Shown: positions 2,294 to 29,726 of the stretch, piece after piece
How positions within the stretch are numbered: the first letter of the stretch is position 1
How the letters are laid out: each line of letters begins with the position of its first letter
From: a virus
Direction: 5' to 3' (one strand)
Virus record (IMG/VR): IMGVR_UViG_3300042458_002197
Location: 1 to 29,726 of that record
DNA: 29,726 nucleotides
Position numbers and translations under genes: made by a program
Notes under the pieces: model-generated
Told to the model about the DNA's origin: nothing
The model's input: the letters and a program-made list of their open reading frames with translations, nothing else
Database searches by the model: none

Positions 2294-3283
2294 ATGTCTG
2301 ATGAGATAATCGTGGATGCGTCAGAAGAACTAGTGCTAGATGAGCTGATCGTCGATGTGGAGGCAGAAGTAGAGGTAGAAGTACCAGAAGCGCCGCCCAT
2401 GCGTCGACTTTATTTCATTAATGAGATAGTAGAGTGGAATTTAACACAATACATTTGGACTGGTTGTACGAGGGTTGAACTTCGCGATGAGATAATGAGC
2501 CATGCAACCGAATTGATTAGACAGATTATACGTAAGCAGGGTTTGCACACGATTTATCCCGGTGCTGAAGAATCTGCTTTTGGTGATTTGTTGCAGACTG
2601 CGTGGTGCCAACTTGAGAGAACGCTTTATAAGTATCGATCGAGACCGCATTGTAGGAATTGTTTTAATCCCGATAGACCATCAGACTCTTTGTTATATGA
2701 TCCTCCTCCGAAGCAATATGGTATTATTACTATAGATGATGTTGTTGAAAAGATTGATAAATGTCCTATATGTAATGTTAAATTCTTACCATATCCGTAT
2801 GTCTTGCCTAAACAAGGATTATATGGTGGTACTGAGACAATCATATTTAGGGGCATGAGTAAAGTTTTTAATATGTGGTCGCAGATAGCCAGAACGGTAA
2901 TCTTGGCTTACATCAAAAAAGAAGGCAGAGATAGGAAGAATGGTCATAACTATATGAACCATCTTGGGTCTAGAAACAAGTCCCAAAACAATATGATAGA
3001 AAGATTTATTCTTGAAGCCAGACAATTATCAAAATACAATGATGACTTCCTAAAAATAATAGAGACATTGGAGCTGTTGGTGAAAGAGGATGACAAGCCT
3101 CACGATGGGTTGATCGGTAAACTTGTGGATAAATCTGGTCTATCACGTGCTATTATCACAAATTGGTTTAAATATATTAAATATCAAAGTTTCGATTTTA
3201 CAGACAGCCCTGTGAACAGGATTAGAGGCGAATATAAGAATGATCGAAAGAAAGTAATAAACGACGAAGAAGACTTTGGATAA
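2294..3283 (+). CDS. gp55-like late-transcription sigma factor with zinc-ribbon insertion (putative)
   Basis: A 329-residue protein. After an acidic N-terminus, residues about 64-115 (...AFGDLLQTAWCQLERTLYKY) resemble sigma region 2.1-2.2. Residues about 187-215 (MSKVFNMWSQIARTVILAYI, then KKEGRDRKN) resemble the region 2.3-2.4 pattern of T4 gp55-type sigmas, where a Phe/Tyr-rich strand leads into a helix ending in basic residues. Between them lie C120-x2-C123 and C157-x2-C160, a likely zinc ribbon that T4 gp55 lacks. A helix-turn-helix-like stretch is at about 274-300. A GGAG site 8 bases before the ATG supports the start. gp55 redirects host RNA polymerase to late promoters, which fits a position beside head genes. 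The family call is by pattern and could be wrong; a zinc-binding DNA-binding protein is the alternative. Confidence 0.62.
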   Translation: MSDEIIVDASEELVLDELIVDVEAEVEVEVPEAPPMRRLYFINEIVEWNLTQYIWTGCTRVELRDEIMSHATELIRQIIRKQGLHTIYPGAEESAFGDLLQTAWCQLERTLYKYRSRPHCRNCFNPDRPSDSLLYDPPPKQYGIITIDDVVEKIDKCPICNVKFLPYPYVLPKQGLYGGTETIIFRGMSKVFNMWSQIARTVILAYIKKEGRDRKNGHNYMNHLGSRNKSQNNMIERFILEARQLSKYNDDFLKIIETLELLVKEDDKPHDGLIGKLVDKSGLSRAIITNWFKYIKYQSFDFTDSPVNRIRGEYKNDRKKVINDEEDFG

Positions 3284-6874: not shown

Positions 6875-9800
6875 ATGCCCAGTAACTGGCTTGTCTTCGA
6901 CAGAATACGTGCTTTAACTAAATCAGCGAATGTCTTTAGAGCAGACAAGATTTTCCAGGATCAGTCTAACCTTGACAGGCTCACAGCTGGCGGGGATTTT
7001 TTAGATTTTAGCAGCCAGGCGGCAATCCTTGATCAGACCAATCTTCAGATCAACCGTCTTGAACGGTATAAAGATTACGAGCAGATGGATCAGACTGGGG
7101 AAATTAGCTTAGCTTTAGATTTATATGCAGATGAAGCTTGCCTGACGGGCGACACGCATATACCATTGTTAGATGGAACATGCCCCACAATCGCAGAATT
7201 AGCAGAACGAGGCCAAGATTCGGAGTTCTGGGTATATTCATTTGACCAACAGACGGGGAAATATGTTCCAGCTTTGGCCAAGGGCGCTCGGATTACAGGC
7301 ACGAACGTGCAGATTGTATGTGTGACTCTAGATGATGGTTCTAAGATTCGATGCACCGCAGACCATCTTTTCATGATGCGTGATGGTACATTTGTGCAAG
7401 CATGCGATCTGAAGCATGATGATAGTCTTAAACCTTTATATAAGAAGCGTCGTTATAGAGCCAAAAACGGTAAAGCTCTATTTGAAGTAAAGCCATATTC
7501 GACAGCTACGGCATATGAATATTTCTTCAACGGAGAGCATTTCCAAAGTACTCATAGATGGGTGTATCATTCATTAAATGAAGATTCGCCTGCCGTGGTA
7601 CATCATGGGAATTTCAATAGCTTGGATAATACTCCAGCTAATTTAAAAGGGATGAATGTTTCTGAACATGATGCTATCCACCGGAAATATGGCAAATCCA
7701 ATCATAGTTTTAAAAATATTGCCTGGGCGGATATAGTGAAAATAGCAGAATCATGGAGTGGTACAATAACTAGAGACAATATCTGTGCTGTTCTTGGTAT
7801 TGGTGAGAGGGTACTTTACCGATTGCTAAGCGAGCAAGGCATAAGATGGGAACAATTTAGAGACAGATATAATCACTGTTCTCGTTGCAACAATCAAATC
7901 ACAGGTGCTCGTCGAATATGTGTGCCATGTAGAAAAGCTTTTCTACATGATTATCATATAGAACATCAAAAAGACGTCACATACAGAGAAAAAAGAAAAA
8001 CACATAGAGCAAATAGTCCGCATATACCGGTCATTCAGAAGACTTGTAAAGCTTGTAAATTAAGCAAGAAATCTAACGAGTTTTTGCGGTCCGGATGCTC
8101 ATTTAGTCCTTATTGCAATGATTGTAGGCCAATAACATGTGAAAGACGATACTTGGCAAAATCGTTTAATAACCATAAGGTGTTAAGCGTCGAATATGCG
8201 GGTGTGGTTGATAAAGTATATGACATTGAAGTTCCTAAATACCATTGTTTTGCCGCTGGGACAGATTCTTCTTGGGTCATTGTGCATAATAGTCTGGTCG
8301 ATTCCGAGAAGAAGCATACGTTAATCATAAAAGCTAGGAACAAGCGGTTAAAGCATGAGCTAGAGGATCTATTCTACAATATACTTAGATGGGATAATTT
8401 TTGCCGCCCCACAATGAGATACTTGTGCAAATACGGCGACGCTCCTTTTGAGATCATTTTAGATCAGAATCGTACATCAGTCGCCGCTCTTCGGTTTATG
8501 AATGTTTATAATTTTACGCGGATAGAGACCAGGTATGGTGATCTGATTGGTTTCTTTTACATGGACGCATTGTTTCCAAAGCCCGTGTTTTTGCATCCTT
8601 GGCAGGTAATGCACCTTAGGCTCACTAGCTTTGAAAACATTTATCATCCTTATGGTAGAGCAATCCTTGATGGTGGCAGGAAAGCGTTTAAGCAGTTGCG
8701 GTTAATGGAAGATGCTGCTCTCATTTATCGTATAACACGTGCCCCCGAGAAAAGGAAGTTCACTATACCTGTTGGAAATATTCCGGCTAAAGAGGTGCCG
8801 GAATACATGCAGATGGTAGCGAGAACGTTTAAGCGACAGAGGTTTTATAATCCTTCTACTGGGTCGTTTGATGAGCGTTATTCGCCGTTGATTCAAGAAG
8901 ATGATTTTTTCTTGCCTAGGCGCACAGATGGGTCTGGTCCTGATATTGATATTCTGCCTGGCGCTGAGAATCTTGATCAAATTAAGGATATTGAATACTT
9001 TAAAAAGAAAATGATCGCCCCGATGAAGATACCATTCAATAGAGTGGGAATCGGCGATGGGGCTGGTGAGGCGAATGAGAAGACGCTATCTCAGTCTAGC
9101 AGCGAATTTGCTAAAGCTGTTCAATGGGTACAGCGTGAGGGGGTCAATGGACTGACTAAAGTGGCTATTGTCCATTTGGCTTTGCGTGGTTATGGAGTAG
9201 AGGATTTGAAGGGTTTCGAGATTTCTTTTACCGCCAATTCTGCGTTGGAAGAGCTTTATCGAATTGAGACTTGGCAGACTCGTGTTAGCGTCATGAGTGA
9301 TTTAAAGGATCTTGGATGGTTCCCTAAAGAGTGGATTGTGACGCATTTTACTGATCTTTCTCCTGATGAGATTGAGGAGATTAAAGAGTTAGAGGATGCA
9401 GAGGTAGAAGGTGGCGGTGGAATGGGCGGCGGCGGCGGCGGTGGTGGAATGGGCGGGATGCCCGATTTTGATCTTGGTGGAGAAGAGGGCGGGCCTGAAG
9501 GTGGTATGCCTCCATTAGATCTTGGGGCAGAGGGTGGTGCCGCGCCTGCTGGCGGTGAGGTTGGAGGTGAGGTTGGAGGAGAAGGAGCAGGTGGAGAGGG
9601 TGCTGGTGATGCTGGGGAAGCAGTTGATGCTGGTTTAGGGGCTCCAGCTGAAGGTTATGATATCAGTGCTGATAGGCGGTTAATATTGGAGATTAGAAAG
9701 AGAGAGCTTAAGAGCAGGAAGCGTAAGGTTATGGCGTCTATCGCCGAACGACTTCATAGGGACTATTTTAAGGATGTTCCGTCTTATACTAATGGCTATG

Positions 9801-22683: not shown

Positions 22684-24355
22684 CCTTATAGATCGTTTTA
22701 AGAGGCCGATACCTAGTCAGAAGCAATATCATGATAGACTGAGTAGAGAATTCGAACTGATAGAGAAATTTAAATTCTCAGGCATATTCGAAAAAGTAGA
22801 TGATATTATAAAAATCGCCGATGGCGTTCCACACATAACCAGAGGTTCAGCGTCATGTAGCCTGGTAAGCTATCTTATGGGCATAAGCGAGATAGATCCC
22901 ATAAGTGATAATATATCATTGGCTCGTTTTATGAATGATCATAGGCCAGATAACCCAGATATTGATTTGGATTTTCCGTATGACAAGAGAGATGGGATAA
23001 TAGAGAGGATATTTGATAAGTGGCCCAAAAGAGTAGCGAGGATAAGTAATCGTATACATTATCGGAAAGACGGTGCTATAAGAGAGGCTATGCGTAGATT
23101 AGGATGTAAAACCAAGATTCCTAGGAAAGCTAATGTTAAGGATTTAATGCCTGGGAAGGAGGAACGGGTCTTAGAGCTTGCTGAATGTCTGATAGATCAG
23201 TATTCTCATTATTCACTCCATTGTGGTGGGTTGGTGTTTTTTGAGGATGAGATACCTAGGGAGTTATTAATAGGCAGGAATCAGGTTTATTATGATAAGA
23301 ATGATGTTGATGAACTTGGGATTTTGAAGATAGATTTGTTGTGCAATAGGGCGTTAGCTCAATTGCTTGATATAGATCAGAGAGCTTTAAATTCGTATCC
23401 TGACAATGACCCTAAAGTAGCAGAGTTGTTCGCTGCGGGGGAGGTGATTGGGATTACATTTGCAGAATCTCCGACATTTCGGAAGGCTGCTAAGGCGGTA
23501 AAGCCGAAGAATATTCAGGAATTAGCTGTGGCTTTGGCTCTGATACGTCCTGCGGCAGCATCCAGAGGCCGTAAGAAGACGTTTTTAGACACGTGGACTA
23601 AGGAGAGAAGAATAACTCAGATTGTGTTTGAGGATGATGCTATACAGCAGATACAGAATTTGCTTGGCTGCTCAGAGGATCGAGCAGACTCTTATAGGAG
23701 AGCGTTTGCTAAGAACGATTTTAAGGTAGTTGATGAATTTAAGCAGAAGATAATGCACCATCCGGATGTTGATCTTATTATATCAGAGCTGTTGCAAGTG
23801 AAGATGTATTCGTTTTGTAAATCGCATGCACTGAGTTATGCTTATTTAGTATGGGCTTTGGCTTATCAGAAGGTATACAATCCACACAGATTCTGGAAGG
23901 CCACATTGAATCATTGTAAATCGATGTATAGGCCATGGGTTTACATTCAGGAAGCTAAGAAGGCTGGTCTTAAGATAGACATGGGGAGACCAAAATGGTA
24001 TCTTCATGAGCAGAGTCTTAAGAAGCCTCAGTATCAAATGTGGCTATTTGAACCAGATGTTAATGAACAATATGATCGATTTGGGTCATGGTTTAAGGAC
24101 ATGACGCCAAATGGTTTGCATTTTAGGAGAGATGGCGATTGGCTTGAATTTAGGGGTCTTGTGGCTTGCTATAGGAAGATGAAGGATATTACTTTCGTGA
24201 CTGTTGGTGATGGTACTGGGGTGTATTATGATGTGATACTTGATAGGTCAATAGACATGCATGGGGTGGATATGGTCCAGGGCGCTGGTGAGATTACTTA
24301 TGATGGGTATAACGAGACTGTTACTGTATGCGGTTTTAAGCTAGAGAAGGTTTGA
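22676..24355 (+). CDS. C-family (DnaE-like) DNA polymerase lacking the PHP domain
   Basis: A 559-residue replicative-type polymerase. It opens at the DnaE palm: EFELIEKFKFSGIFEKVDDI, then HITRGSASCSLVSYLMGIS (DnaE GRGSAAGSLVAY), PDIDLDF at 94-100 with D95, D97 and D99, and KIDLL with D220 as third acidic site. Fingers follow (TFRKAAKAVKPKNIQELAVA, LIRPAAASRG; SYRRAFAKND; FCKSHALSYAYLVWALAYQK). QMWLF (454-458) resembles a sliding-clamp-binding motif, and an OB-like domain (about 485-530) ends the protein. Cellular DnaE proteins are about 1000-1160 residues with an N-terminal PHP domain; here it is absent. GAGG precedes the ATG. All catalytic residues I can identify are kept. Confidence 0.9.
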   Translation: MHNLIDRFKRPIPSQKQYHDRLSREFELIEKFKFSGIFEKVDDIIKIADGVPHITRGSASCSLVSYLMGISEIDPISDNISLARFMNDHRPDNPDIDLDFPYDKRDGIIERIFDKWPKRVARISNRIHYRKDGAIREAMRRLGCKTKIPRKANVKDLMPGKEERVLELAECLIDQYSHYSLHCGGLVFFEDEIPRELLIGRNQVYYDKNDVDELGILKIDLLCNRALAQLLDIDQRALNSYPDNDPKVAELFAAGEVIGITFAESPTFRKAAKAVKPKNIQELAVALALIRPAAASRGRKKTFLDTWTKERRITQIVFEDDAIQQIQNLLGCSEDRADSYRRAFAKNDFKVVDEFKQKIMHHPDVDLIISELLQVKMYSFCKSHALSYAYLVWALAYQKVYNPHRFWKATLNHCKSMYRPWVYIQEAKKAGLKIDMGRPKWYLHEQSLKKPQYQMWLFEPDVNEQYDRFGSWFKDMTPNGLHFRRDGDWLEFRGLVACYRKMKDITFVTVGDGTGVYYDVILDRSIDMHGVDMVQGAGEITYDGYNETVTVCGFKLEKV

Positions 24356-24426
24356 TGCTATATTTAAAAATATTGTCAAATATAAAGTACGTAGTATAGA
24401 TAGAACTGTCTAATGAGCATAAAATA

Positions 24427-24474
24427 ATGCCCGATAAACTAATTAAGCATATTAGTAATCTTATACAGGACTAA
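24427..24474 (+). pseudogene. 15-residue frame resembling the end of the 26448-26831 minus-strand gene
   Basis: MPDKLIKHISNLIQD and stop closely matches the C-terminus of the minus-strand gene downstream (IKYISTLIQD and stop). The 36 bases at 24439-24474 match 26448-26483 in inverted orientation at about 26 of 36 positions. It is probably a relic of a second copy. The other 70 bases of the 24356-24477 gap show nothing I can name. Confidence 0.45.
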
Positions 24475-24477
24475 AAC

Positions 24478-25047
24478 GTGCCTTATAAATTCAAGATTCC
24501 AAATAGTCGCGGGTTTCAAGATGTGCCAATATTTAGTCCTCAATTGGTGCCTGATGATTACGGCACGCCGAGTTTTATTAAAGATGTGATATTGCATTCG
24601 TTTATAGTTAGGGTAGCCTATAATGATCATCATACTGAAGAATTCAGAACTATATTCGAAGACGGCTTAGTAGAATTGGACATAGACCAGGCTCGTTTAG
24701 ATCAGTTAACGACTACGGTAGCGTTTGGACCAAAGCTAGACCAATTTAGGGATTGGCTATTCATAGGCCAGAAAATCGGCAACACTATCAGCGTAGAGCA
24801 GGACTACGTAGTCTCTAGTGCTCTTCCGAATAACACTATATTACTAGTAGACGCTGGGGCTGGTAATGTATCAATAAACTTATACGGCATGTTTAATTCT
24901 AACACAATAACTGTGAAGAAAGTAGACACGACTAACAATGCCGTACTATTCAATGTCCAGATTGATGGCGAGAGCAACCCGTCGATCGTGACTCCGTATG
25001 AGTCTTTTACAATAGTGAAAAAATCAGGTTCATACTTTTTGATATGA
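24478..25047 (+). CDS. Putative virion (tail fibre-associated) protein
   Basis: A 189-residue protein starting at GTG (no ATG near; AGGA about 8 bases upstream). The first half is mixed. The second half (about 105-189) is a beta-rich repeat-like domain (NNTILLVDAGAGNVSINLYG, NSNTITVKKVDTTNNAVLFN, then a C-terminal FTIVKKSGSYFLI). This resembles the glycine/Asn-rich beta caps at the tips of phage fibres and appendages. It overlaps the next, larger structural-like gene (ATGA), so the two form a cassette. Structural role is inference. Confidence 0.68.
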   Translation: MPYKFKIPNSRGFQDVPIFSPQLVPDDYGTPSFIKDVILHSFIVRVAYNDHHTEEFRTIFEDGLVELDIDQARLDQLTTTVAFGPKLDQFRDWLFIGQKIGNTISVEQDYVVSSALPNNTILLVDAGAGNVSINLYGMFNSNTITVKKVDTTNNAVLFNVQIDGESNPSIVTPYESFTIVKKSGSYFLI

Positions 25048-26411
25048 TTGGGGCAATGATGAGTCTTCTAAGAAATGTAAACGTTGTAAACGAAGTCGAA
25101 ATAGCAAATGATGACAATAACCCAATAGCTGTAGAAGGTCTAGTCGAAGTAACCAATGATAATAATAACCCCATCCCAGTAATAGTCCAAAATGGGGGAA
25201 CAGACCCAATAGCTGTAGAAGTGACCAATAGTATAACAGCAATTTCGACCCCTGTATTTGGCACAACAGACTCATTCGGCAGACAAAGAATATCACAGCC
25301 ACTAACCATATTCGACAGCCAGAATAGGTATAAACAAGATAGCAAATGGAGTACCGTCACTGCAAGCAGCGGTAACGCCACTTATGTTGCTGCAGAAAGT
25401 GCTGTGAATCTTAACGTCACAGGATCAACTGGCAGTAAGGTGGTACAAGAGTCTGTAAGAGTAATACCATACCAGCCCGGTAAAAGTTTACTATTACTCA
25501 TGACTTTCGCGATGAACACACCTAAAACTAATTTAAGGCAACGCGTTGGGTTTTTCGGCATTAACAATGGAATATACTTAGAAAACGACGGTGAATACAA
25601 TTATCTTGTGTTGCGTAGCCAAAGTCTGAACGTCACAAGAAGAATTAGGCAGGATAGCTGGAACAACGATGTCTTAGCTGATCTGGTCATAAACAAGACT
25701 CAAATATTATGGATAGATATTGAATGGCTTGGAGTCGGCAATGTTAGATGTGGGTTTATAGTTGATGGTCAATATGTATTAGCACATACTTTTAGGCATA
25801 GTAATATAGAACTGACCACATACATGACAACAGCCTGCTTGCCGTTACGATATGAAATTGAGAATACTGGTACCACTGGTTCATCTTCTACACTGAAAAA
25901 AATATGCTCGACAGCAATCTCAGAAGGTGGATACAATCAAAAAACTAAGCAATGGTCGGCTACCAGGACGACTGCCATAGCCAGTACTGCTGTTGCTGAT
26001 GGGTGGGCTCCGGTTATCTCTCTTAAATTAGCTACTGGTAGAGAAGATGCGGTGGTTATACCTGGTCAGATACATCTTTCGGGCACAGGAAATGGTGCTT
26101 ATTATGAATTTTCTTTGATTCGCAATGCTACTATTACCGGTGGTTCATGGGTGAACCACAGCTCCAGCGGCGGCAATGTCGACTATAATGCTAATGCTAC
26201 ATCAATGAGTGGTGGTGTTGTTGAGGAATCTGGGTTTTTTACCAGTACTACACAAGCTAGAGGGGCAGTTAGCACGAATTTAGACTACATTTTCGATTTA
26301 CAGATTGGGAGAGACCAAACACCTACTTCTGATACGGTTACATTAGCTGTGAGACATTTGGCTGTCGGCGGTGATGTTTATGGTAGTTTGAATTGGAATG
26401 ATTTGGTATAA
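25044..26411 (+). CDS. Putative tail fibre/virion structural protein
   Basis: A 455-residue, largely beta-strand protein. The N-terminus contains short repeats (AVEGLVEVTNDNNNPIPV...DPIAVEVTN). There follows FGTTDSFGRQRISQPLTIFD, a signature seen in a group of phage structural proteins (FG.lRvS...). Then come VRVIPYQPGKSLLLLMTFAM (RYqPGkgl...), a region of concanavalin-like strands with GFFGINNGIYLEND, and a Gly/Ser/Thr-rich end. It is probably a receptor-binding or neck-appendage protein. Possible starts are 25044, 25056 and 25059; 25044 gives the ATGA overlap. Its wobble use drifts from A/C to G/T along the gene. Confidence 0.75.
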   Translation: MIGAMMSLLRNVNVVNEVEIANDDNNPIAVEGLVEVTNDNNNPIPVIVQNGGTDPIAVEVTNSITAISTPVFGTTDSFGRQRISQPLTIFDSQNRYKQDSKWSTVTASSGNATYVAAESAVNLNVTGSTGSKVVQESVRVIPYQPGKSLLLLMTFAMNTPKTNLRQRVGFFGINNGIYLENDGEYNYLVLRSQSLNVTRRIRQDSWNNDVLADLVINKTQILWIDIEWLGVGNVRCGFIVDGQYVLAHTFRHSNIELTTYMTTACLPLRYEIENTGTTGSSSTLKKICSTAISEGGYNQKTKQWSATRTTAIASTAVADGWAPVISLKLATGREDAVVIPGQIHLSGTGNGAYYEFSLIRNATITGGSWVNHSSSGGNVDYNANATSMSGGVVEESGFFTSTTQARGAVSTNLDYIFDLQIGRDQTPTSDTVTLAVRHLAVGGDVYGSLNWNDLV

Positions 26412-26447
26412 TATTTGCTAAAGCTTTATCTATTGCTATTATAAAGA

Positions 26448-26831
26448 TTAATCCTGGATTAAAGTGCTGATATATTTGATTTGTTGTTCTTCTAACATAC
26501 TCTGCTTGTTTAACGGTTTGCCGTAAAACTCTACATTTTTTAAGTAAGATGGTGTGTTGTCGTATAATTTGTTATTGGACATATTTTCTGCTACGAATAC
26601 GCTGATTACTTCTCTTAGTCTTTCTGGAATATGCTCATTGTCTTTGCCTTCGATGAAGATGTAATCTTCGAATAATTTTTGGGTCTTTATCACACCTTCA
26701 GCGATGGCGCATAAGACTTTAGTGCCATTATTAGTATTTGTCAGGTATAGCCCATAATTATAGAAGTCTTTTTTTAATGCATAGAGATCTCTGTATGTAA
26801 CACAATTATTTAAGAGAGTTTGAATATTCAT
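26448..26831 (-). CDS. Hypothetical protein on the minus strand
   Basis: A 127-residue protein, the only convincing minus-strand gene in the window. It is AT-rich, mainly helical, with Asn, Tyr, Lys and Glu frequent (ALKKDFYNYGLYLTNTN, IPERLREVISVFVAEN). The ribosome site is weak (gagtgg about 5 bases upstream). It converges on the fibre cassette, and its C-terminus has a partial inverted copy at 24427-24474. It diverges from the ATPase gene at 26961. No family is recognised; a moron-like accessory gene is possible. Confidence 0.72.
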   Translation of the reverse strand: MNIQTLLNNCVTYRDLYALKKDFYNYGLYLTNTNNGTKVLCAIAEGVIKTQKLFEDYIFIEGKDNEHIPERLREVISVFVAENMSNNKLYDNTPSYLKNVEFYGKPLNKQSMLEEQQIKYISTLIQD

Positions 26832-26888
26832 AAGCCACTCTACTGATTGTGATAGTATTCGTATTATATTTGCTAGTTTGTTAGTATA

Positions 26889-26919
26889 TTGACGTAAGTA
26901 AACGATCTTGCCATATAAT
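26889..26919 (+). promoter_or_regulatory. Sigma70-type promoter candidate for the ATPase gene
   Basis: TTGACG (26889-26894) and TATAAT (26914-26919) are separated by 19 bases, slightly long. They lie in the 129-base divergent gap between the minus-strand gene and the ATPase gene at 26961. Confidence 0.45.
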
Positions 26920-26960
26920 ATCAGAACAGTGATTGCAACAATATACTATAGAGGACAGCC

Positions 26961-27554
26961 ATGTACCTGAAAAGAGCAGAAATCAAGGAAGAGCGCCACT
27001 GCTTTAATAACATAGGCCAAAAATTCGAACTAAGGGACATTACACTTCTTGTGGGTGACCAAGGATGTGGTAAGTCAACATTGCTCAGGGGCTTACAGCA
27101 CCAATCTAAATTTCTCAAAGTAGCTTTAACACCATTGGGCCAAAATGGTGTGAACACTATGTTTTTTGACACAGAACATATGAACCCAAGGACGCGAAAT
27201 CCTGAAGGATATGACAGTAATAGTGGATTTGGCTACAATGAGGCTATACATTCCCGCTTTAAATCACATGGTGAAGTTCTAAAGAGATTCACCGTGGATG
27301 TCATGAGCAAGGCTGAAAATAGTGTTCTTTTTTTGGACGAGCCAGAGGCTGGATTGTCGTTAAGGAATCAATATAGGTTATGGGACGAGATCCAAAAAGC
27401 TTGTAGGCGGAAGTGCCAGATAATAATCGCCACTCATTCGCTTGTTATCATTCAGGCCGCTGAGGATGTATTGTCTTTAGAGCACGGAAAGTGGATGAAG
27501 TCTGGTGATTTTATAAGCATCCAAAAGATTGGAGATGTTCAGAGTGACAGATAA
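26961..27554 (+). CDS. COG3910-like P-loop ATPase
   Basis: A 197-residue ABC-type ATPase with Walker A GDQGCGKST (33-41), a signature SHGE (102-105) in the style of the COG3910 predicted ATPases, Walker B with catalytic Glu FLDEPEAGLS (124-133), and switch His ATHS (157-160). It contains no coiled-coil or nuclease domain, so it is a bare nucleotide-binding module that would dimerise around ATP. The family is uncharacterised; relatives include OLD/RecF-like DNA and defence ATPases. GAGG precedes the ATG. It overlaps the next gene by 11 bases. Confidence 0.87.
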   Translation: MYLKRAEIKEERHCFNNIGQKFELRDITLLVGDQGCGKSTLLRGLQHQSKFLKVALTPLGQNGVNTMFFDTEHMNPRTRNPEGYDSNSGFGYNEAIHSRFKSHGEVLKRFTVDVMSKAENSVLFLDEPEAGLSLRNQYRLWDEIQKACRRKCQIIIATHSLVIIQAAEDVLSLEHGKWMKSGDFISIQKIGDVQSDR

Positions 27555-27810
27555 TAATAGCCCTCTCAGAACGCATCCTGTACGGCGTAATGGTACTGTG
27601 TTTATTTGCACGTATACGCCAGGCCATTATGACAAATGCCAGGAACTCATAGACGAATGGACAGAAGGCACCACATGGAGTAGCATATGGGGTGCTCCTT
27701 ATGAGGTGGAAGTAATCCCTGCCACGCATTATCGCAACACCTGCACGCTATACGACCACAGAAAAACAGCCATTCTTGAAGCCAAGCAACAAGCAGAAAT
27801 GGGGCAATAA
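27544..27810 (+). CDS. Hypothetical protein, GTG start
   Basis: An 88-residue protein. Candidate starts are TTG 27529, ATG 27535 and GTG 27544; the last sits 13 bases after the GGAG at 27531, the same distance found at the four junctions further downstream. It has strand GTVFICTYTPGHYDKC and a WTEGTTWSSIWGAPYEVEVI segment rich in Trp. No family is recognised. Coupled to the ATPase gene by overlap. Confidence 0.65.
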   Translation: MTDNNSPLRTHPVRRNGTVFICTYTPGHYDKCQELIDEWTEGTTWSSIWGAPYEVEVIPATHYRNTCTLYDHRKTAILEAKQQAEMGQ

Positions 27811-27811
27811 G

Positions 27812-28282
27812 ATGACCACTCCTTACCAGCCGGTAAATCCGCCCATACCATATGAAGAGCAATACGTCGCAAAAATCGAGGCGATCCATTCCGAAATTGC
27901 CTACTGCTCAAAAATCCTACAAAATTCGCCTTCAACCGAATTTACGCACCGCATCTATGCTCTAGAACGCGATCTACAAGTGAGGCTATGTAACCTCAGA
28001 GAAGGGTTGCTTAACCTTAAGATTGAGCGTTGGATGGCTGATTGCCGGATCGACTCTTTCGACCTGGAAGAAATCGAGAAAGCTGCCAGGGCTGTTTTAC
28101 AAGACCACCCGCACCCTTGGAGAGCCGGTAACACAATAAGAGATGCAAACGATGACTTAGTCGCGGATTCTACATCCAGCTCAACAGATCGGTTTTTGAT
28201 GATGGCTAATCCGACAGCCATTCTTGTGTTAATAGCCGAGATCAAGCGGCTTCAAAATGAAACTGATAATGACACCGCTTGA
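27812..28282 (+). CDS. Ea22-like (Ead) phage accessory protein
   Basis: A 156-residue protein. The N-terminal half is helical (VAKIEAIHSEIAYCSKILQN, ALERDLQVRLCNLREG). The C-terminal half matches the Ea22-like/Ead motif of lambdoid phages: HPHPWRAGNTIRDANDDLVA then FLMMANPTAILVLIAEIKRL, that is W...I.DA....VA...fi..aNP..vl.Li.Ei.rL. Ea22 is a non-essential early protein of unclear function, often encoded with DUF551 genes, as here. The start ATG at 27812 follows the upstream stop by 1 base; the frame upstream is open but lacks a good start. Confidence 0.72.
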   Translation: MTTPYQPVNPPIPYEEQYVAKIEAIHSEIAYCSKILQNSPSTEFTHRIYALERDLQVRLCNLREGLLNLKIERWMADCRIDSFDLEEIEKAARAVLQDHPHPWRAGNTIRDANDDLVADSTSSSTDRFLMMANPTAILVLIAEIKRLQNETDNDTA

Positions 28283-28324
28283 TTTTAATATTGACGCCGC
28301 TTGAATATCATGCCACAATAATCT

Positions 28325-28349
28325 GTCGGGGGGGGTTGATCCTCCCGAC
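28325..28349 (+). other. G-rich hairpin
   Basis: The stem 28325-28333 with 28341-28349 (one G-T pair) includes most of an eight-G run (28328-28335). No T-run follows, so it is not a clear terminator; it lies 20 bases before the mini-gene at 28369. Just upstream a 12-base segment (gacrccgcttga) is repeated at 28271 and 28293. Confidence 0.35.
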
Positions 28350-28368
28350 TCACCAACAGGAGAACCTG

Positions 28369-28431
28369 ATGAGCGTATTAGACGAGTACGGTGACATCAA
28401 ATACAAACAGATTCAATGGAGTCCGATCTGA
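28369..28431 (+). CDS. 20-residue mini-gene leading the DUF551-like cluster
   Basis: It has a strong ACAGGAGAA site and an ATG, then MSVLDEYGDIKYKQIQWSPI, with its stop overlapping the next ATG (TGATG). The final QWSPI echoes the THWRPV/SHWRSV endings of the two DUF551-like proteins that follow, so it may be an internally deleted relative. Its last codons carry GGAG for the next gene, so translating it may feed ribosomes to the cluster, in the manner of a leader. Confidence 0.45.
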   Translation: MSVLDEYGDIKYKQIQWSPI

Positions 28432-28655
28432 TGAGCGATTGGATCGAAATTACTGACGATCCGGATACGCGACCAGAAGCTTGCGAGCTCGTGATTATCC
28501 ACGAGTCTGGGGGTAATGGCTCCGAGCTGTTCGGCTGGCGCGATGGCTGTCGCTGGTACCAATCCAAATTAGTCTATTGGAGCAGCAACACTCAGTCGAT
28601 GGAGCCAGAATCGCGAAAAGAATGCAGCCCACCTTCTCATTGGAGGTCGGTCTGA
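28431..28655 (+). CDS. DUF551-like protein, copy 1
   Basis: A 74-residue protein with the DUF551 layout: start WIEITDDPDTRP, short strands (CELVIIHESG, LFGWRDGCRWYQ), and end SHWRSV. DUF551 proteins are small phage-encoded proteins of unknown role. The frame is open from ATG 28416, but ATG 28431 fits the start of its paralogue and lies 13 bases after GGAG. The codons for the C-terminal Trp-Arg (TGG AGG) form the ribosome site of the next gene. Confidence 0.7.
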   Translation: MSDWIEITDDPDTRPEACELVIIHESGGNGSELFGWRDGCRWYQSKLVYWSSNTQSMEPESRKECSPPSHWRSV

Positions 28656-28906
28656 TGCAGAAATGGATCGAACTCACCGACAATCCAGACACTTGGCCGC
28701 CAATTGGAGTCGTTGTATTGGCTAAAACCGAGTACCCTCACAACCTGATACAGCTATTATGTGTTGAAGAACTAGATTCAGACTTTCCAAAAAGTTGGAT
28801 ATCCTGGATGGTCCCTCATAACATCCACGAAGGCATCGCAGATGATATTAAGTACGAATGCGCTAGCAATCACATTGGAACCGTCACACATTGGAGGCCA
28901 GTATAA
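28655..28906 (+). CDS. DUF551-like protein, copy 2
   Basis: An 83-residue paralogue of the preceding protein: MQKWIELTDNPDTWPPIGVV aligns with its MSDWIEITDDPDTRPEACEL, and THWRPV ends it. The central part is longer and differs (CVEELDSDFPKSWISWMVPH). The ATG at 28655 overlaps the upstream stop (TGATG), 13 bases after GGAGG; an earlier in-frame TTG is not supported. Its own stop overlaps the next ATG (TAATG). Confidence 0.72.
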   Translation: MQKWIELTDNPDTWPPIGVVVLAKTEYPHNLIQLLCVEELDSDFPKSWISWMVPHNIHEGIADDIKYECASNHIGTVTHWRPV

Positions 28907-29412
28907 TGAGACTACCTGATCGTTGGCATTTTTGGGAAGACAATGGGGGCTGCATCGAATGGAGTTTGAAGTCTGGGACCATCCTAGCCCAAATCCATAT
29001 GAAGGTTCCGGATTCGGCTGTAGGCCCCATCTTGGCTGATTGTATAACTTACGGGGCTGAACTATGGACGATCGACCCTTGGTCCAGTATTGCCACCAGC
29101 GTATATGACAGCCTTGAAAAGGCTATGTCTGGATGCGAGGAACAGATAAGGAAATATTTGGAGGCCAAGATTAATAAACTTGAGGCTGAACTGGCGGATC
29201 GGCCAGTGGTATTTGCGATTCAGCATATCGATACCAAAATTCTTGCTGAAAGGGGCTACAAGTCCGTTTCTATGAGGGGTACGACATCCGCCGAGTCATC
29301 TGCGAGTGTTGATCTCTATAGATCAGGAGGAGAAGCCGCAATAGCTATCTTACGGGAATTCTTCGATCCAGAACACTGGAAAGTTGTTGCTTACACAGGG
29401 AGGCTGATCTGA
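28906..29412 (+). CDS. Hypothetical protein, paralogue 1 of a tandem pair
   Basis: A 168-residue protein starting MRLPDRWHFWEDNGGCIEWS, 13 bases after GGAGG. An N-terminal domain of about 90 residues (PILADCITYGAELWT, YDSLEKAMSGCEEQIRKYLE) is shared with the next gene. The C-terminal part (about 90-168) is specific: a helix (AKINKLEAELADRP) and a mixed domain ending YTGRLI. The family is not named, but the pattern of Trp, Asp and the SLEKA...C..QI helix is repeated in the pair. Stop overlaps the next start. Confidence 0.72.
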   Translation: MRLPDRWHFWEDNGGCIEWSLKSGTILAQIHMKVPDSAVGPILADCITYGAELWTIDPWSSIATSVYDSLEKAMSGCEEQIRKYLEAKINKLEAELADRPVVFAIQHIDTKILAERGYKSVSMRGTTSAESSASVDLYRSGGEAAIAILREFFDPEHWKVVAYTGRLI

Positions 29413-29726
29413 TGGAACTACCTGATTGTTGGTATTATTACGGAGATGACGAATGGCGTTTGAGGTCGGGAACCATCACAGCCAGAATCAACATGCATGT
29501 TCCAGGCAATATCGGCTCTCCGCATTTTTGTATTGCGCCTATCTTGGCTGATTGCATTACTTACAGGGGTCAACTATGGACCTGCGGGAACGTCATTGAA
29601 AGCGGCGAATATGATAGCCTTGAAAAGGCTAAAACTGAATGCGAAAAACAAATTAGGAATTATTTGGAACATATTCGGCATTGGTGGCGTATTGGAGTCC
29701 AATCTGATGCGTTTCAGAAACACGAA
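29412..29726 (+). CDS. Hypothetical protein, paralogue 2 (cut by the window end)
   Basis: An open frame of 105 codons without a stop before the window ends. It begins MELPDCWYYYGDDEWRLRSG and shares APILADCITYRGQLWT and YDSLEKAKTECEKQIRNYLE with the preceding protein, with a small insertion (SPHFCI) in between. The ATG lies in a TGATG overlap, 13 bases after GGAGG. After the shared domain the sequences part, as in modular paralogues. The missing 3' end prevents a full description. Confidence 0.7.
   Translation, partial: MELPDCWYYYGDDEWRLRSGTITARINMHVPGNIGSPHFCIAPILADCITYRGQLWTCGNVIESGEYDSLEKAKTECEKQIRNYLEHIRHWWRIGVQSDAFQKHE

Follow-up and report, generated by a model that had tools for sequence, protein, structure and literature searches.

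The right end of the virus record IMGVR_UViG_3300042458_002197 raises the question of whether the last codons of one small phage gene can also act as a fixed ribosome site for the next gene, whichever gene that is. The window, that is, the whole stretch of DNA analyzed, comprises 29,726 bases of this record. Its genes had PHROG matches to helicase, terminase, portal, head maturation protease, major head protein and DNA polymerase, and we therefore assigned it to a tailed phage; the record is possibly a fragment of a larger genome. At the right end of the window is a plus-strand chain of a 20-codon leader open reading frame (ORF) followed by genes 2, 3, 4 and 5, of which genes 2 and 3 are DUF551-like. 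Our analyses indicated that small genes such as these, in a group of uncultured phages, are probably linked by a reusable coding joint that works by Shine-Dalgarno (SD)-assisted termination-reinitiation and tolerates gene exchange.

Direct reading and a script both placed GGAG at positions 28418, 28642, 28893 and 29399, each exactly 13 nucleotides (nt) before the downstream ATG (28431, 28655, 28906 and 29412), as an earlier note on this DNA had claimed for four successive junctions. The stop codon of each upstream gene overlaps the next start by 1 nt, the four overlaps in order being TGATG, TGATG, TAATG and TGATG, and this part of the earlier note was also confirmed. The leader ORF (28369..28431, ending IQWSPI*) is connected to gene 2 (28431..28655, body class B) by joint 1 (28418..28433), in which the GGAG is read as TGG AGT (Trp-Ser). 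Joints 2 (28642..28657) and 3 (28893..28908) carry GGAGG and lead from gene 2 to gene 3 (28655..28906, body class C) and from gene 3 to gene 4 (28906..29412); both are read as TGG AGG (Trp-Arg), so the claim that the two DUF551-like genes end in this way was borne out. Joint 4 (29399..29414), also with GGAGG, is read as GGG AGG (Gly-Arg) at the end of gene 4, which is not DUF551-like, and leads to gene 5 (29412..29726), which is open at the end of the record. The ATG of the leader itself, at 28369, is preceded by an intergenic AGGAG whose GGAG is 10 nt upstream. A look-alike at 29694/29707 was considered as a fifth junction and ruled out, as gene 5 has no in-frame stop there and the homologous stretch of L002, a 231-kb relative, lacks it.

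The uniformity of the joint was assessed in 31 non-redundant family genes from 14 records including the window, obtained by protein-based scans of IMG/VR and one DNA-pattern scan (25 genes after removal of five duplicates, plus six after removal of five near-duplicates). Left out were L011 (five genes, the same as a stretch of G003), L048 (three, close to L047) and L053 (two, close to L052), and L019 and L021 were counted once. The peptide patterns of the protein-based scans end before the Trp-Arg and therefore do not select for the joint. All 31 genes had GGAG within the Trp-Arg codons and the next ATG at 13 nt, and all 31 protein tails read [HR]WR(P/S/L)x(x)*, that is, Trp-Arg plus two or three residues. 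The overlap with the next gene (T[GA]ATG or ATGA) was 1 nt in 14 genes and 4 nt in 17. Where the stop codon lies one codon further on, giving the 4-nt overlap, the position of the ATG is unchanged; the distance from the Trp codon to the ATG is fixed and that from the Trp codon to the stop is not. A hand-made list of 36 junctions comprised those of the 31 family genes, of two leaders and of three further genes bearing the same block; position -13 had GGAG in 35 of them and GGGG in one. The 16-mer GGAGGCCGATCTGATG, with at most one mismatch, occurred 14 times in 933,632 bases (both strands of 11 records) and not at all in a reversed control, and the joint is therefore beyond chance.

In the same 11 records, 133 other junctions with 1- or 4-nt overlaps were found between ORFs of at least 80 codons with ATG starts, a set that includes spurious ORFs. 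GGAG was present within 20 nt in 38 of these, with a mode of 12, and lay at 13 in five, three of which are non-family joints with the same block. When the same scan was applied to the DUF551-like genes, GGAG was at 13 in 25/25 with a 40-codon cut-off and in 23/23 with the 80-codon cut-off. A GGAG near this distance is thus normal for these phages, and it is the uniformity that is special to the joint. In excerpts of Huber et al. 2019 (PMC6728339) and Palleja et al. 2009 (PMC2784483), overlapping genes are described as commonly having their SD site within the upstream gene, where it often contributes to reinitiation and limits how that gene can end. An intragenic SD at overlapping genes is, by itself, ordinary; uniformity of this kind is not.

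The codon choice within the tail was more informative about the level at which selection may act. The Arg codon after the last Trp is AGG in 30 and AGA in one of the 31 genes; as background, AGG makes up 16.5% of 7366 Arg codons and occurs in 10 of 128 internal Trp-Arg pairs in the 11 records, counts that were based on uncurated gene sets of greedy longest ORFs. On a gene tree built without the tails, the Arg codon changed once, and changes numbered 11 for His, 10 for Thr, 8 for Pro/Ser and 16 for Ile; besides the Trp columns, every other scored codon column had at least five. The third base of the Ile codon changed 12 times. From this contrast we infer that selection at the RNA level holds the Arg codon at AGG and the distance from SD to ATG at 13 nt. 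The proposal that the protein end and the ribosome site are constrained together is well supported within the lineage, with all 31 genes at 13 nt and a near-invariant Arg codon beside variable neighbors.

These data also bear on the possibility that the joints are ordinary SD sites of overlapping genes multiplied by tandem duplication, and are uniform because the paralogues have had too little time to vary. The genes are indeed paralogues, the spacing is within the usual range, and the excerpts cited above describe intragenic SD sites as common at overlapping pairs. We consider this explanation unlikely, however, since identity to gene 2 falls as low as 22% among the family proteins, the codons beside the Arg codon changed 8–16 times to its one, and the block also ends genes outside the family.

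A somewhat less likely explanation is that the block is kept as a DNA recombination or repeat element in which the SD function is secondary. It would account for the near-identical 16-mer that ends genes of three different families, for the conservation of positions -9 to -4 in 31–35 of the 36 listed joints, and for the presence of a second repeated block, ATGACACCGCTTGA, at gene starts. An element conserved as DNA would not be expected to leave the codon before the Trp free, to admit the 12 third-base changes in the Ile codon, or to have three variable bases before the ATG (CTG, ATA, CTA, TTA, TGC, CGC, AGC, TGA, AGT, ACC and ATC were found) next to a GGAG and an ATG distance that do not vary; in addition, much of the conservation from -9 to -4 falls at codon positions held by the protein (Pro/Ser, Ile/Val). 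The freedom of the codon before the Trp also makes gene conversion of whole joints an unlikely source of the uniformity.

To place the joint relative to DUF551 proteins elsewhere, we used a collection of named phages, in which 235 records match a DUF551-like query, and picked 18 loci by hand from 60 listed. Fifteen of the 18 fetched comparators, several of them close relatives of one another, could be scored by a His/Tyr-Trp-x-Pro motif; L062, L066 and L068 had no [HY]W.P in the scanned stretch. The tails of all 15 read HW(M/Q)PLP.., so that the near-terminal His-Trp is kept, and the codon after the Trp is ATG (11) or CAA (4), i.e., Met or Gln, with an Arg codon in none. The Trp is followed by 8–14 residues before the stop, and the two codons that hold the GGAG in our family have none in any of the 15. 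Two comparators (L070 and L072) overlap the next ORF by 4 nt and have SD-like bases in the later tail. The earlier note had held that homologues whose C-terminal Trp codons lack the fixed spacing would speak against its proposal; outside this lineage, all 15 scored proteins are such cases. From this absence we take the arrangement to be lineage-specific, the joint being more readily viewed as acquired by a single phage lineage than as a property of DUF551.

Together with the codon data, the same comparators argue against the view that only the protein, through the closing strand of a barrel, keeps the HWR(P/S) tail in place and that the SD is a by-product. This view draws on the His-Trp in all 15 scored DUF551 proteins and on the gene 2 model, in which the tail is predicted to be the last strand. 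Selection acting only on the protein gives no preference to one Arg codon over its five synonyms, though, and the 15 proteins have Met or Gln at that position, from which it follows that Arg is not required by the DUF551 fold. We regard it as very improbable.

Sequence and structure searches indicated how far the family is from DUF551. Genes 2 and 3 are alike mainly at the start (W-I-E-x-T-D-x-P-D-T-x-P) and the end (HWR). Neither had a Pfam match at E<=1, and the window had no match to PF04448, the DUF551 family, at E<=10. PF04448 was matched by eight of 17 family members, at E 0.0038 at best and in each case below the cut-off; other Pfam families gave no match at E<=1. The best score was 19.7 bits against the Pfam cut-off of 22 bits; four of nine records matched at E<=10 and none of the nine passed. 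When 25 family members were compared with PHROGs, four families were each matched by a single member (best E 0.004), and the family is therefore without a shared PHROG. An AlphaFold2 model of gene 2 built from 25 sequences was confident, with a mean predicted local distance difference test score of 88.8; its long elements are all strands, and its last strand comprises residues 70-73, HWRS. A fold search of BFVD with this model returned 612 matches; among the 50 listed, the sole one at E<=0.001 was an uncharacterised phage protein (44% identity, E 1.1e-7), and the DUF551-named proteins among the matches listed were weak, with probability 0.80–1.00, E 0.07–0.64 and template modeling (TM) scores (query) of 0.44–0.59. 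No PDB fold matched the model at E<=0.001. It is fair to regard genes 2, 3 and their relatives as remote relatives of DUF551 and not as members; the label "DUF551-like" given in the earlier note holds for a remote kinship and does not extend to membership.

Searches for further relatives were negative within their scope. A tblastn search of the phage collection with gene 3 gave no match at E<=0.01, a search for gene 5 in viral contigs gave three pattern matches, none a relative, and genome contigs gave 28 pattern matches, none a relative, and therefore no host or prophage link. In a distant DNA search with 24000-29726, matches were confined to two records of Synechococcus phage S-SRM01 and fell on the structural gene.

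In the records examined, the joint links many different genes. The bodies between the conserved start and end of the family genes fell into 11 classes at one cut and nine at a coarser one, the class letters being arbitrary. The 36 junctions represented 25 different upstream-downstream joins, or 23 with the coarser classes and with the downstream gene of L047 merged. The order A-B-C was found in G002, L012 and L005, B-A in G004, D-A in G006 and K-A in L052, so that bodies A and B occur in both orders; the window has leader-B-C and L002 has leader-C. After the last family gene of a chain came DUF3310-type, MSCPDYY or other genes. DUF3310-type genes, assigned by a Pfam E of about 6e-15 in the two tested and by likeness of their starts in the others, follow bodies A, Bp, C and E, and the MSCPDYY gene follows bodies A, C and I. 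Different genes thus stand at the same joints across records.

The block, with at most one mismatch, also ends three non-family genes: gene 4 of the window (..TGRLI), a G002 gene (..AGRPI) and a G005 gene (..KGRPI). The G002 gene (9220-9513) is homologous to the C-terminal half of gene 4 (63% over 84 residues), and the N-terminal part of gene 4 is a paralogue of gene 5. Gene 4 therefore looks like a fusion, with a first half akin to gene 5 and a second half akin to a small gene that is separate in G002. We had also considered the N-terminal extension of some family genes to be a homologue of the G005 gene ending KGRPI, and dropped this when BLASTP gave no alignment.

The closest view of an exchange came from L002. 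Gene 2 has no counterpart in this genome, where the leader is joined directly to a homologue of gene 3 (86% identical), and at that junction the sequence switches between the two window junctions inside the joint. A second switch follows gene 3, either in the joint or no more than about 20 nt past it; beyond it, a single L002 gene, with a start nearest that of gene 5, occupies the place of genes 4 and 5 of the window. Such a pattern is what the gain or loss of units would leave. The idea that genes may be added to the chain as units, also raised in the earlier note, stands insofar as many different joins, A and B in both orders, and L002 without gene 2 are found; the joint may promote such exchange or may only survive it.

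Together, these findings suggest the following mechanism for the joint. The predicted last beta-strand of the DUF551-like barrel would end in His-Trp-Arg, with TGG AGG supplying the SD core GGAGG and the next two or three codons acting as the spacer. Because stop and start overlap at each joint (TGATG, TAATG or ATGA), a ribosome that has just completed one protein would be in position to restart on the next by termination-reinitiation. Selection on the RNA, to judge from the codon contrast, would keep the AGG and the 13 nt even when the stop shifts by one codon. Since the joint itself would carry the signals for translating the next gene, genes or bodies could then be gained, lost or exchanged between joints with their neighbors undisturbed. 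Coupled translation, selection through the host ribosome and recombination at the joint are all inferred from the sequences, and exchange may physically have proceeded by recombination within the short repeats at joints and gene starts, or by duplication and later divergence.

Several points weigh against the reading of a reusable coding joint. The 31 genes are related and their counts are not independent, and G006, with two of the 31, was found only by a DNA pattern containing the joint, without which the counts are over 29. Five non-family junctions among the 36 were chosen because they carry the block, and the joint of the G001 leader is the one with GGGG. At the other overlap junctions 12-13 nt is the commonest position for GGAG (19 of 42 GGAG positions in the 38 junctions), and the distance itself is therefore ordinary. 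In parts, the spacer is conserved almost to the degree of the SD (of the 36 joints, 34 have C at -7 and 35 have T at -4), mostly at codon positions held by Pro/Ser and Ile/Val. No such joint is present at the end of the single L002 gene that stands in place of genes 4 and 5. Adjacent hypothetical genes of Microcystis phage Mel-JY01 (L045 2254-2704), which both begin WIKITD(N/D)PATWP and have Thr-His-Tyr near the end, are 1 nt apart, with no stop/start overlap and no joint, and tandem arrays therefore do not need it; the kinship of this pair rests on the common start motif, as the match that pointed to them was weak (E 0.7).

The reusable joint has partial parallels in known systems. Both features of pairs with SD-assisted termination-reinitiation, an ATGA/TGATG overlap and an SD in the upstream 3' coding region, were present in 31/31 family genes; the excerpts of PMC6728339 and PMC2784483 treat pairs or genome averages, whereas here one fixed joint recurs across a gene family and many combinations. 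Shuffling at repeated regulatory cassettes of T4-like phages, the promoter early stem loops (PeSLs), is attributed to Arbiol 2010 and Comeau 2014 in an excerpt of PMC4503421. As described there, those cassettes resemble the present case in that small, shuffled genes of a phage are interspersed with a regulatory sequence that recurs, and differ from it in that the joint here is a translation signal written in codons. A PeSL has a promoter and a stem-loop between genes; a scan of the window found no plus-strand promoter-like or terminator-like match at its four joints, and one promoter-like site and one hairpin precede the chain. DUF551 (PF04448), called a portable domain in the Ea22 paper (PMC10834534), is likened to our family by the remote sequence match, a possibly similar predicted fold and the near-terminal His-Trp, and is set apart by the (M/Q)PLP.. 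continuation of the 15 scored named-phage proteins, which lack the Arg codon and the 13-nt restart. Among open-licence PMC papers, in titles and the starts of abstracts, we found no description of one coding joint reused across many gene combinations. Intragenic SD sites at overlaps and cassette shuffling are known, and it is the reuse of one coding joint across gene combinations that appears to be new.

Gene starts may be reused in a similar way. The start block ATGACACCGCTTGA (Met-Thr-Pro-Leu-Asp/Glu) had 15 exact copies in 10 of 11 records (the window, G001, G002, G003, G004, G006, L005, L012, L019 and L021) and none in a reversed control. Thirteen copies, including five in G003, stand at the start of ORFs that are 30 codons long or more. 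Five of the 13 ORFs represent a single MTPL(D/E)FIA extension found on family genes, two (G003 and L012) are alike, and the remaining six look different, as judged by eye. This distribution hints that gene starts, like gene ends, are reused in these phages. The window copy (28269..28282, plus strand) is exact and is not among the 13; read in its other frame, it encodes the C-terminal NDTA* of the gene just before it (27812-28282).

Between this copy and the leader ORF are two further plus-strand features. A consensus scan identified a promoter-like TTGACG-17-CACAAT (28291..28319), which is weak evidence for a promoter because the scanned stretch had 11 such sites and shuffled sequences 7.0 +/- 3.0; its L002 counterpart is TTGACA-17-CACAGT. 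The -35 region of this site repeats the start block (TTGACGCCGCTTGA). A G-rich hairpin in the 5' leader, GUCGGGGGGGG...CCUCCCGAC (28325..28349), is part of a predicted fold of -23.9 kcal/mol (z -2.33), equaled by 3 of 200 shuffles. L002 is near-identical across 28291-28349, which covers both features. Its leader ORF (2966-3001) has 11 codons and ends IQWGPI*; it has its start region and end in common with the window leader and differs in length and body, as if the leader ORF were a gene reduced to its two joints. No Rfam match at gathering thresholds was found in 26400-29726, and a tRNA search of the window found none.

Two other observations were made upstream of the chain. A GTG at 27544 (within 27531-27554) looks coupled to the AAA-ATPase gene before it (..KIGDVQSDR*), which contains a GGAG 13 nt ahead of this start; L002 has the same arrangement of GGAG, 13 nt and GTG at 2124-2137. 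Between the DNA polymerase and AAA genes, at 24356-26960, the window has extra ORFs missing at that place in L002, one of which matches the virion structural protein family phrog_1645.

More tentatively, we speculate that the joint is a connector, made up of a closing strand, the next ribosome site and a stop/start overlap, and that recombination there and at the start blocks assembles working operons. If this speculation is correct, modularity in these phages would be built into codons and not into intergenic DNA. The accessory regions of phages turn over small genes fast, and it is seldom possible to see how a newcomer comes to be translated immediately. In this chain the connecting sequence is readable, is common to different neighbors and could be tested by one synonymous codon change. 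It is also a clear candidate for a single codon held by RNA-level selection inside a conserved protein motif.
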